The notes under the pieces are model-generated. The model saw nothing but the letters and a program-made list of their open reading frames with translations, ran no database searches and was not told the origin of the DNA. Positions 42,748-46,923 of a stretch of 64,000 bases of DNA are shown here, one piece after another. The stretch is taken from the NCBI GenBank assembly GCA_947259575.1, contig CAMYMU010000037.1, forward strand, positions 126,001-190,000, written 5' to 3'. The stretch is from an uncultured Ectothiorhodospiraceae bacterium. GTDB lineage: Bacteria > Pseudomonadota > Gammaproteobacteria > UBA6429 > Thiohalophilaceae. The stretch's first letter is position 1. Every line of letters starts with the position of its first letter. A program made the position numbers and the translations under genes.

Positions 42748-43435
42748 ATTCTTAACAGGTTTAATGGTTGTCCTTTCTCAAATAGGCGTAGTCTTAGCCC
42801 TGGCTGCTGTGGTTACTATCTTTCTATTTATCAGGCGTAAACAGAAAGATAACTCTTTGTGTAAGCGCTTTATAGAATTGCTCAAACAAAAAGAGGGTGG
42901 CAGAAAGGATAAGTTAATCGAGGCGCTACAGAAAGTTCATAATATGAATGATGAGCTTGCAGATCAAACTGCTAAGTCCATGTTAAGCAGTGAAAAGAGA
43001 ATATATAATCATGTGTTAAAGCTCTTTATGGGACATGATCGCGATGCCCTGGCAGAGGTGCAGAAAGATGTGGAAAGTATGGCCAGTGCATACCGAAAGT
43101 TAATCGCTACTGTTGAGAGTGACTCTCCCGTTGAGCATGGAGAAAGCCCAAAACATAATGCTCAAATGCGAGCTGCGATGAAACAACTCACCGCAGAACG
43201 CGATAAGCTTCAGCAAGACCTTGATGAAGCGATGCTATCGATGGAAAATATGCTGAAGGAATACACTCAGATGTATTCAGGCGGCGGTGCTAAAAAAGAA
43301 GGTCTGAAACATATTGAAAATGAACTTGGGCAGCTCAAACAAAAGATCGAAGAGAACCTGGTAGAAGTTAGTGATGATGACGAAGAAGATATTCCAGATT
43401 TAACACCCCCGGAAAAAAATAAAGAAGCAGAATAA
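42740..43435 (+). CDS. Membrane-anchored coiled-coil protein, partner of the vWA protein
   Basis: The 231-residue product has one N-terminal helix (about 7-31) and a cytosolic part rich in Lys, Glu and Gln. Heptad-like stretches occur at about 143-175 (MKQLTAERDKLQQDLDEAM) and about 190-210, and the C-terminus is acidic (DDDEEDIPDL). No enzymatic motif is seen. The 8-base overlap with the vWA gene implies coupled translation and a shared complex. Function is unknown. Confidence 0.7.
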   Translation: MSEFLTGLMVVLSQIGVVLALAAVVTIFLFIRRKQKDNSLCKRFIELLKQKEGGRKDKLIEALQKVHNMNDELADQTAKSMLSSEKRIYNHVLKLFMGHDRDALAEVQKDVESMASAYRKLIATVESDSPVEHGESPKHNAQMRAAMKQLTAERDKLQQDLDEAMLSMENMLKEYTQMYSGGGAKKEGLKHIENELGQLKQKIEENLVEVSDDDEEDIPDLTPPEKNKEAE

Positions 43436-43462
43436 AAAACGCCGTCAAAAGACGGCGTTTTT
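43435..43462. terminator. Bidirectional rho-independent terminator
   Basis: ACGCCGTC (43439-43446) and GACGGCGT (43451-43458) form a perfect 8-base stem with an AAAA loop. It is flanked by an A run and a T run, so it works for both the coiled-coil gene (plus) and the convergent rpoH (minus, ending at 43490). Confidence 0.92.
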
Positions 43463-43489
43463 GTGCATGGACGTGCTTATTTAAAAAGT

Positions 43490-44335
43490 CTAACTTAAAG
43501 CATTCCTAAGCTTCTTCATCGCATTGTTCTCAATTTGACGAATACGTTCAGCTGATACGCTGTACTCATCTGCGAGTTCCTGCAATGTGGTTTTACTTTC
43601 TTCTAACCAGCGACGCTTCACAATGTCCTGACTACGATCATCAAGAGAGGAGAGTGCGTTAATCAAGCGTGTCTTGTTATGCGACTCCCATTCTGTGTTT
43701 TCAAATTGCTCAGCAGGTCCTTCAGAGTTGTCCTGTAAATAGGCTGCAGGTGCAGTAGGACTGTCTTCATCATCGTCATCGCGTAAGTCAAAACCGATAT
43801 CTTGACCGCTCATGCGTGATTCCATTTCCAGGACTTCTTTGGTTGATACACCAAGGTCTTTGGCTACCTGCTGAACTTCAGCGTGGTTAAACCAGCCAAG
43901 TCGTTTCTTAGAGCTACGCAGGTTAAAGAACAATTTACGTTGCGCTTTAGTTGTTGCAACTTTAACGATTTTCCAGTTGCGTAAAATAAACTCATGAATT
44001 TCTGCACGAATCCAGTAAACCGCAAACGATACCAGTCGAACGCCGACATTGGGGTCGAAACGCTTAACTGCTTTCATTAAACCGATGTTACCTTCCTGAA
44101 TCAGGTCCTGCTGTGCAAGTCCATACCCAGAGTAACCTCGGGCAATGTGCGCGACAAATCGAAGATGCGCCATAATTAGCTGACGCGCTGCATCAAGATC
44201 ATTTTCCTCAGTGAGTCGGAAAGCCAGGGCCTTCTCTTCTTCAGCACTTAAGACATCAATACCCGATATGGCCTGCATATAGGCATCGAGACTACCGGCT
44301 GGAACTGGCAAATGCATGTCTAGTGTTTTACTCAT
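43490..44335 (-). CDS. rpoH: RNA polymerase heat-shock sigma factor (sigma-32)
   Basis: The 281-residue sigma factor directs transcription of chaperone and protease genes. Region 1.2 ([19 protein letters not shown]) is followed by region 2 ([59 protein letters not shown]). The RpoH-specific block [20 protein letters not shown] (20 residues, about 128-147) comes next, and region 4.2 ends with [20 protein letters not shown] in part. An acidic stretch ([10 protein letters not shown]) lies between. A CIRCE-like operator and promoter lie 38-64 bases upstream. Confidence 0.97.
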
Positions 44336-44369
44336 GGATTCTGTAACCCCCGTACATTAGGATGGATTA

Positions 44370-44399
44370 ATACTAGCACTCCCAATCATAGAGTGCCAA
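44370..44399 (-). promoter_or_regulatory. Putative rpoH promoter overlapping the CIRCE element
   Basis: Reading the minus strand, TTGGCA (44399-44394) is a -35 box one base from TTGACA. TAGTAT (44375-44370) is a -10 box, with TGC directly before it giving an extended -10. The spacing is 18 bases. Both boxes sit in or beside the arms of the inverted repeat, so a bound repressor would exclude RNA polymerase. The start would be about 27 bases before the rpoH ATG. Confidence 0.65.
44373..44399. promoter_or_regulatory. CIRCE-like HrcA operator upstream of rpoH
   Basis: CTAGCACTC (44373-44381), 9 bases, then GAGTGCCAA (44391-44399). The CIRCE consensus is TTAGCACTC-N9-GAGTGCTAA: each half has one mismatch and the 9-base spacer is exact. 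CIRCE is the binding site of HrcA, the heat-shock repressor usually found at groE and dnaK. hrcA itself is not in the window. Confidence 0.75.
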
Positions 44400-44454
44400 A
44401 CTTTCTAGAAGTTCACAGGAAAATAGAGAAATTTCAGCTGCTTACCCACAATTT

Positions 44455-45843
44455 TTAGTGGGTAAAGGTTGGCACAGCCTCAGAAAGGCCAGCATCATCA
44501 TTCCAGGGTGAGGCAGTGGGGCCGTCGGCGGTATATATATAGATACGATTACGGCCGTTTTCCTTGGCCATATACAGGGCTTTATCAGCGATGGAGATAA
44601 ACTTGGTTAAATTTTCATCAGGATGGTCGGCCGTGCAAGCCAGTCCAATACTCACGGTGATCTCCACACCCGCGGGTTTCATGCTGGCTAAATCGCTACG
44701 CAGCATTTCTGCACGTTCCAACATCTGATCGGCGTTGAGATTAGGCAATAACAAGCAAAATTCCTCGCCGCCAAAGCGCACCACCATGCCGTCCTTGAAT
44801 GAGGCATTGAGTTTTTCTCCAAGCTCGGCCAGGACGTGGTCACCGGTAATATGGCCCAGGGTATCGTTTATCTGTTTGAAATGGTCGATATCAATCAGCA
44901 TCGCCCAGACAGGCTGATTGTCAGTGTTATTGATGTATTCTTCGCCATTGTCCACCAGGTAGCGTTTTGAGCGAACCCCGGTCAGGCTATCTGTCACCGC
45001 TATCCAGCGCATGGCCTCGGCCTGCTCCTTGAGTGCATCATATTGGTGTTTGATGAGCAATAAGGCCCTGACTCGGGCAATCAGGACTTCCTCAACGATA
45101 GGCTTGTTAACGAAGTCATTGGCCCCGGCATGAAATACTTCGACCTGGGTTTGAGGCTCTTCGGAACTGGTGAGTACTAGCACAGGCATTTCTTGCTGTG
45201 ACATGTGCATTTTGGCTCGGATGGCATGTAGCAAATCACCCCCGGTCATATCACCTTCCAGGATGAAGTCGGTGATGACCATGTCGTAGTCATCCAGGCT
45301 GTGTTCGTTCCCATGTTTTTCTTGCAGCATGCCCAGGGCCTCTTCGCCTGCTGAAAAGCGGCTGACTTTGAGTCCATGTTTTTCGAGTATTTTCTGGATT
45401 ACTGCAGCGGCGGTGGCACTGTCTTCAACAAACAGGATATGGCCAATCAAGCCAGAGTGGCGCTGTACGAAGGAACGGATAAAACCACCGAAGGCCTTGT
45501 AGCCCTGGGATTTATCAAAATAATCGGTTACCCCGGCCTCAAATCCCTCTCGCAGTAATCGGGAATCGGCATCGCCAGAGACGACAATAATGGGGATATA
45601 GCTATGGCTCTTGGAGGCCCGTATTTGGCGGCTCAGCTCCAGGCCGTCCATATCGGGAAGCATCAACGCGGTGGAGACCAGGTCATATTTGCTGTGATCC
45701 AGTAGAGTAAGCACTTCCTCACCGGTAGCACAGGGGTATACCTCGGCATTAGTGACCTCTTCTTGCAAAATTCGGGTCAATATGGCGCGGGTCACTGAGG
45801 AGCCGTCCACTACAATAATGCGTGTTTTATGTTCGTTCATCAT
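44455..45843 (-). CDS. Response regulator with two receiver domains and a GGDEF domain (PleD-like)
   Basis: The 462-residue protein has REC1 (about 7-128), REC2 (about 134-260) and a diguanylate cyclase domain (about 285-450) with VRFGGEEF (358-362), competent for c-di-GMP synthesis. REC2 keeps its acidic pair (E140, D141) and phospho-acceptor D192. REC1 is degenerate: the expected acceptor Asp is A59 (DLVSTALMLPD) and the DD pair is DG, so it likely serves dimerisation. The canonical RxxD product-inhibition site before GGEEF is not visible. No histidine kinase lies nearby. It sits between ftsX and rpoH. Confidence 0.93.
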   Translation of the reverse strand: MMNEHKTRIIVVDGSSVTRAILTRILQEEVTNAEVYPCATGEEVLTLLDHSKYDLVSTALMLPDMDGLELSRQIRASKSHSYIPIIVVSGDADSRLLREGFEAGVTDYFDKSQGYKAFGGFIRSFVQRHSGLIGHILFVEDSATAAAVIQKILEKHGLKVSRFSAGEEALGMLQEKHGNEHSLDDYDMVITDFILEGDMTGGDLLHAIRAKMHMSQQEMPVLVLTSSEEPQTQVEVFHAGANDFVNKPIVEEVLIARVRALLLIKHQYDALKEQAEAMRWIAVTDSLTGVRSKRYLVDNGEEYINNTDNQPVWAMLIDIDHFKQINDTLGHITGDHVLAELGEKLNASFKDGMVVRFGGEEFCLLLPNLNADQMLERAEMLRSDLASMKPAGVEITVSIGLACTADHPDENLTKFISIADKALYMAKENGRNRIYIYTADGPTASPWNDDAGLSEAVPTFTH

Positions 45844-45939
45844 GATGCTATTACTCTATCCATATAATTCATTATAGCCGTGTCGCTGGCCTGAGGGCCT
45901 GTGTGGCCAGGAAATATATATAAAACTAAATCATTATAG

Positions 45940-46923
45940 TTAGCGGGGTTCGATTTCGCGCAAGTGACGACCCACGGCAATCCAGGAGCCACTCAAGCCA
46001 AGGCCAATACTCAAAACCAGTATGGTTATTATCGTACCAAAATCCATTTTATGAAGGGCGAATTGACTTTGATAGAGGCCGGCCAGGTCCTCCACTGGCC
46101 CGCTCATCAGATACAGGCTCAGGAAGACCAGCACGATGGCAATGAAACCACCGATAAAACCATACCAGAAGCCTGTGTAGAGGAAGGGACGGCGGATAAA
46201 GGCATCGGTTCCGCCAATCAGCTTGACGATAACAATTTCGTCACGTCGGTTCTGGATAGCGAGCCGAATCGTGTTGCCGACCACTAGCAAGACGCCGATG
46301 GAGAGCATGATACCCAGGATCACAATGCCCTGGCTGACGATATCCATGATGGCGAACAAGCGTTGTACCCACTCACTATCGAGTTGTACCAGATCGACCT
46401 GTTTATATTTACCCAGTTGCTTGGCCAGGGCCTCTAATTGCTCAGCGTTATTAAAGCGTAGGTCCGGGGTGACCACTAAGGTAGCGGGGATGGGATTGTC
46501 ATCCAGTGCCTTGAGTGCCGTATCGTAGCCGGTACGTTGCTTGAATTCCTCGAGTCCTTTTTCACTGGAGATGTACTCGACCTCAGCGACCTCATCCAGT
46601 TTGTGGATCTTATTTGCCAGTTTTTTAGCCTGCGCCTCGGTTGTCTTCTGTTTTAGATAGAGTGAGATCTTGGCAGCCCCCTCCCAGCCACCACTGAGCT
46701 GTTGAGCGTTGCTGAGTAGTACGTGCATGCCTGTAGGCAGTGCTAAGGCGATGCCGATCACGGCTGCGGTCATCAACATAGCAAAAGGGGTCCGCCAAAG
46801 CTGGCCCAGGCTATAGAAAAAGACCTGGGCGTGGCGCAGGAAATAGGTACGGATGCTGGTTGCGATGCCCGGTTTATCCCGGCTGGTGACATCTTCGAAT
46901 AGTTGATCAGCGGATGGTTTCAT
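45940..46923 (-). CDS. ftsX: Cell-division protein FtsX
   Basis: The 327-residue permease-like protein has four membrane helices (about 45-66, 200-223, 245-270 and 297-318) and a large periplasmic loop between the first two. GGWEGAAKISLYLKQKT, then LVQLDSEWVQRLFAIMDI, and later NRRDEIVIVKLIGGTDAFIR (20 residues) are FtsX blocks. With FtsE it activates peptidoglycan hydrolases through EnvC at the septum. It follows ftsE with 8 bases between. Confidence 0.96.
   Translation of the reverse strand: MKPSADQLFEDVTSRDKPGIATSIRTYFLRHAQVFFYSLGQLWRTPFAMLMTAAVIGIALALPTGMHVLLSNAQQLSGGWEGAAKISLYLKQKTTEAQAKKLANKIHKLDEVAEVEYISSEKGLEEFKQRTGYDTALKALDDNPIPATLVVTPDLRFNNAEQLEALAKQLGKYKQVDLVQLDSEWVQRLFAIMDIVSQGIVILGIMLSIGVLLVVGNTIRLAIQNRRDEIVIVKLIGGTDAFIRRPFLYTGFWYGFIGGFIAIVLVFLSLYLMSGPVEDLAGLYQSQFALHKMDFGTIITILVLSIGLGLSGSWIAVGRHLREIEPR

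Follow-up and report, generated by a model that had tools for sequence, protein, structure and literature searches.

In the window, by which we mean the whole 64-kb stretch of DNA that was analysed, the heat-shock sigma factor gene rpoH is preceded by an inverted repeat that is very likely a true CIRCE operator, lying over the predicted sigma-70 promoter of the gene, where bound HrcA would occlude polymerase and so stand above sigma-32. Most related families that have retained hrcA show this arrangement too, and for this reason the rpoH operator looks real and a normal part of heat-shock control. A preliminary description of this DNA had predicted an HrcA operator over the rpoH promoter, and the prediction is supported by the presence of hrcA in the genome, conservation of the putative operator in relatives, its co-occurrence with hrcA and a conserved promoter register. 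The features of the locus are as follows.

44373 to 44399, minus strand: CIRCE operator, reading TTGGCACTC-N9-GAGTGCTAG on the rpoH strand (pattern search, and the same place in relatives)
44394 to 44399, minus strand: -35-like hexamer TTGGCA, from the left arm of the operator (consensus match, and conservation of its G in the family)
44370 to 44378, minus strand: predicted extended -10 element TGC-TAGTAT, in which the right arm ends with TGCTAG and the last T (44370) lies three bases past the arm
43490 to 44335, minus strand: rpoH, heat-shock sigma factor sigma-32, 281 aa (open reading frame and NCBIfam rpoH_proteo, TIGR02392)
43435 to 43462, minus strand: intrinsic terminator-like hairpin 3' of rpoH (consensus match only)
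44455 to 45843, minus strand: upstream gene for a PleD-like response regulator with a GGDEF domain, which stops 55 bp short of the operator
45940 to 46923, minus strand: ftsX, farther upstream (open reading frame and profile match)

The identity of rpoH is secure (TIGR02392 gives 416 bits, its cut-off being 323.1), and the PleD-like GGDEF gene sits between ftsX and rpoH with all three on the same strand. Read directly from the sequence, the plus strand at 44373-44399 is CTAGCACTC-N9-GAGTGCCAA. Compared with the CIRCE consensus used here, TTAGCACTC-N9-GAGTGCTAA, it has two mismatches, one per half, and a spacer of exactly 9, so that the pattern search confirmed the repeat as it had been described from the letters alone. 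It is the sole CIRCE match in the window at up to 3 mismatches, and 100 dinucleotide shuffles of the window yielded none at the same threshold. The operator ends 37 bp before the rpoH ATG and is weaker than that of most relatives. A second, 12-base inverted repeat (92%) pairs 44393-44404 with 44464-44475, where the end of the GGDEF gene contributes a further TTGGCAC as the second arm; this pairing is probably due to chance.

The preliminary description had proposed looking through the complete genome for hrcA and for further CIRCE sites, and both are there. The assembly (3.45 Mb in 70 contigs) has one hrcA (PF01628), with HrcA matches to TIGR00331 (343 bits), PF01628 and PF03444. A whole-genome search at up to 3 mismatches returned three CIRCE places, with 0, 2 and 2 mismatches, and all three precede heat-shock genes: a perfect site lies upstream of groESL (L001), a site with 2 mismatches upstream of hrcA-grpE-dnaK-dnaJ (L002), and the third upstream of rpoH. 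With the reversed pattern, the threshold of 3 mismatches gives 1 place per strand across the genome, so three places by themselves exceed chance only modestly; if the threshold is set at 2 mismatches and base composition is taken as even, about 0.07 sites are expected per genome.

The comparison of rpoH upstream regions among relatives, also proposed earlier, shows that the repeat is kept. All 30 rpoH loci fetched from the window's family carry an upstream site at up to 3 mismatches (25 with one, 3 with two and 2 with three). These loci come from a sample of 40 genomes, 38 with an rpoH match and 2 without a true match; the loci omitted are 3 partial genes at the ends of contigs and 5 complete genes outside the 30, and three of those five (G026, G058 and G060) have a listed CIRCE site adjoining rpoH. 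Among 80 rpoH loci drawn from the genome collection by protein similarity, 55 carry a site within 3 mismatches of the consensus (48 are perfect matches) and 25 carry none, two of the latter (L084 and L089) with less than 150 bp of upstream sequence. Thiothrix, Cocleimonas flava, Thiofilum and Thiolinea are site-positive, while Methylophaga, Marithrix and a SAR86 genome are site-negative. In 16 hand-picked genomes of this set, hrcA is present in 9/9 with the site and in 0/7 without it. Two loci, L134 and L036, have a tandem CIRCE pair upstream of rpoH, one perfect and one with a single mismatch.

Co-occurrence with hrcA extends across the class, taken to be Gammaproteobacteria. Our class panel holds 140 genomes, one per family except for two from the window's own family; 105 have hrcA (PF01628), and the 35 scored as hrcA-negative comprise 20 named directly and the remainder not among the 105 positives. 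The 130 genomes with rpoH give 131 regions (one genome has two rpoH genes), each scanned up to 500 bp upstream. CIRCE at up to 3 mismatches precedes rpoH in 90/99 hrcA-positive regions versus 5/32 hrcA-negative regions (Fisher, 1.6e-15), and at up to 1 mismatch in 77/99 versus 4/32 (4.5e-11); of the 95 sites, 47 are perfect. The reversed pattern was found in 0/131 of these regions, and mononucleotide shuffles gave 1/655 at up to 3 mismatches. Regions with and without a site are well apart, since the best match in the latter has at least 6 mismatches. In 22 extra genomes of the class, taken from a phylum draw with several from one family, the site is present in 3/3 with hrcA and 0/19 lacking it.

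The exceptions fall on both sides. Eight hrcA-positive genomes, plus one rpoH paralogue of a ninth, have no site. G071 has two rpoH genes (L207 and L199), with the operator at one only. Five genomes without PF01628 keep a CIRCE-like site, namely G052 (L139), G106, G122, G151 and G158, which may reflect an assembly gap, recent loss of hrcA or retention of the site as a promoter only.

Because these genomes share ancestry, the class counts are not independent. We therefore compared pairs on a tree of 106 rpoH proteins, which covers 50 of 51 hrcA-negative genomes and 56 of the hrcA-positive ones. Supported branches leave only 4 independent pairs, of which 3.7/4 agree (p 0.125). When branch support is ignored and the best tree is used, pairing with our own script yields 17 pairs, 12 of them informative; in the median, 11 agree, 1 disagrees and 5 are tied (p 0.006, rising to 0.02 for the worst pairing). 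The pattern did not extend to the sampled genomes from other classes of the phylum, where the site is rare at up to 3 mismatches (1/30 hrcA-positive and 0/12 hrcA-negative genomes). This sample consists of the best rpoH match of each of 42 genomes among 89 with an rpoH-like match; 10 of the 42 matches fall below the family's curated cut-off, and one upstream region is shortened by a contig end.

We then turned to the promoter. On the rpoH strand, the -35 hexamer TTGGCA at 44399-44394 is followed by an 18-bp spacer, TGC and the -10 hexamer TAGTAT at 44375-44370. The spacing falls within the 16-18 bp taken here as typical of a sigma-70 promoter. The left operator arm would thus serve as the -35 box, and the right arm as most of the extended -10 box. 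The earlier claim of a -35 box and an extended -10 with 18-base spacing overlapping the arms therefore stands, and the register is conserved in relatives. Such a match alone is at chance level (2 found in 43380-46000 against a shuffle mean of 3.9), and the window's match gains its weight from this conservation.

If the operator arms double as promoter boxes, then the outside base that completes the -10 hexamer, the T three past the right arm, should be kept too. It is kept in 84/95 rpoH sites of the class versus 3/24 groES sites (p 1.6e-12), in 30/30 rpoH sites of the window's family versus 3/28 groES sites (p 1.9e-13) and in 49/55 further rpoH sites. The groES comparison used 30 class and 30 family loci, with L276 in both, and sites were found in 24 and 28, respectively; of the loci with no counted site, 3 were scanned without finding one and 5, in which the GroES motif was not found, were not scanned. 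As the completing T marks rpoH sites and not groES sites, the rpoH operator is probably itself the promoter, as judged from base conservation. The base at operator position 3 is G, giving a TTGGCA closer to TTGACA, in 29/30 rpoH versus 3/28 groES sites of the family; across the class, this G does not separate the two (29/95 versus 5/24, p 0.45). Since the family's rpoH sites share it, the window's deviations from the CIRCE consensus are in part characteristic of rpoH copies in this family.

The groES loci among L261-L319 look different. There, a conserved CTAT precedes CIRCE, and about 30 bp upstream there is often a CTTGACA-like box, which suggests that the groES operator, unlike that of rpoH, lies downstream of its promoter. 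We also searched the 60 bp before each operator for sigma-32-like boxes (CTTGAAA-N11-16-CCCCAT-like, scoring at least 11/14, with one shuffle per region). Such boxes are enriched before the groES operator (14/51 versus 0/51 shuffled), the window genome's own groES scoring 9 of 14. Ahead of the rpoH operators of the class panel they show no enrichment (3/95 versus 1/95 shuffled), a result that rules against autoregulation of rpoH by sigma-32 at the operator.

These observations suggest a mechanism in which HrcA on the operator would exclude sigma-70 polymerase from rpoH and keep sigma-32 synthesis low. In Bacillus subtilis, heat inactivates HrcA, as does the loss of free GroEL. A similar response here would derepress rpoH, groESL and hrcA-grpE-dnaK-dnaJ together, and the new sigma-32 would in turn drive its own regulon, which would make a coherent feed-forward circuit with HrcA above sigma-32.

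One alternative is that HrcA does bind but contributes little, with rpoH expression set mainly by other promoters, by read-through from ftsX and the GGDEF gene, by translation or by protein stability. It is compatible with the mechanism above, as it concerns the size of the effect, and we consider it rather unlikely. Read-through into rpoH from the upstream GGDEF gene is possible, no terminator-like site being predicted between that gene and the operator on the minus strand, and E. coli offers a precedent in that its sigma-32 is controlled after transcription. Against a minor role, the site is conserved and tends to be missing where hrcA is missing, which suggests an operator of some importance. 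Two weak tests of the leader point the same way: the 181 nt that begin at the predicted start, taking in the predicted leader and the beginning of the coding region, show no more stable folding than shuffled sequence (z +1.45; 191/200 shuffles fold at least as well), and a search of 43400-44600 with 4,227 Rfam families gave 7 weak matches, none at the gathering score. Both also speak against an RNA thermometer in the rpoH leader, while leaving its absence unproven.

Another possibility is that these bases are kept for sigma-70 alone. CIRCE arms resemble -35 and extended -10 boxes, so the likeness to CIRCE would be incidental, and both the coincidence of the operator arms with the promoter boxes and the CIRCE-like site kept in the five hrcA-negative genomes are consistent with this. 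We regard it as improbable all the same, because the 47 perfect class sites include the symmetric CACTC...GAG, inner bases that fall within the promoter spacer, and because the site is missing from 27/32 hrcA-negative regions, where rpoH must still be transcribed. Per column, the inner bases are 89-100% conserved among the class sites, a figure to which selecting the sites with a limit of 3 mismatches itself contributes. The stronger arguments are therefore how many of the sites are perfect and their absence from most hrcA-negative genomes. That the repeat arose by chance, to which its two mismatches and the genome-wide reversed-pattern matches might point, is refuted by the empty window shuffles and by its recurrence upstream of rpoH in relatives, and the low expected number of sites per genome at up to 2 mismatches also counts against it. 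A CIRCE operator laid over the rpoH promoter remains the best explanation.

The window genome shares the operator sequence and repressor family with the HrcA/CIRCE system of Bacillus subtilis, which acts at groE and dnaK. Bacillus has no sigma-32, and its CIRCE lies at or after the transcription start. As in E. coli, rpoH is the heat-shock sigma gene, and E. coli sigma-32 rises on heat. In E. coli, mRNA structure and protein stability are the main controls on rpoH; the species lacks HrcA and is not among the matching control genomes in the hrcA search.

The closest precedent is Geobacter sulfurreducens, a deltaproteobacterium and one of the genomes studied by Rodionov et al. (2004, PMC545781), for which the portions of that paper covered here predict a perfect CIRCE upstream of rpoH, at position -51. 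Predicted CIRCE sites also precede groESL and hrcA-grpE-dnaK-dnaJ in that organism, so that the three predicted targets are those of the window genome (same portions of PMC545781). The window site differs in having 2 mismatches and, unlike the site in the covered part of that report, is of a type that recurs across a class and in register with the promoter (PMC545781). The preliminary description had called HrcA control of rpoH far less usual than that of groE and dnaK; this does not hold, given a predicted site at 90 of the 99 hrcA-positive rpoH regions in the class and, in those portions, the 2004 Geobacter sulfurreducens prediction (PMC545781).

In the parts of the literature searched, CIRCE at rpoH was found only for Geobacter sulfurreducens (PMC545781). 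The covered portions of PMC10696704, PMC3989490, PMC3224663, PMC10490939, PMC11764788 and PMC1978210 do not report it, and that of PMC5343134 contains none of the CIRCE/rpoH terms searched. We do not claim that the class-wide pattern is unpublished, because Permina and Gelfand 2003 and RegPrecise lie outside this scope. The window site is a putative new member of the already known HrcA/CIRCE regulon, and rpoH as a predicted target of it is already known. What may surprise a specialist is the class-wide rule, together with the promoter register. If CIRCE at rpoH was reported earlier in beta- and gammaproteobacteria, this was most likely in the survey by Permina and Gelfand, which reportedly took in beta-, gamma- and epsilonproteobacteria.

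Textbook accounts usually treat repression through HrcA/CIRCE and activation by sigma-32 as alternatives or as inputs acting in parallel. Were HrcA to control rpoH in most hrcA-positive families of the class, the two circuits would form one hierarchy, to which the well-studied E. coli scheme would be the exception. We lean slightly toward the view that HrcA repression through an operator-promoter may be the ancestral gammaproteobacterial design and the E. coli scheme a derived one, reached by repeated joint loss of hrcA and the operator. The joint presence or absence of operator and hrcA would offer natural pairs for asking how control of rpoH was rebuilt after HrcA.
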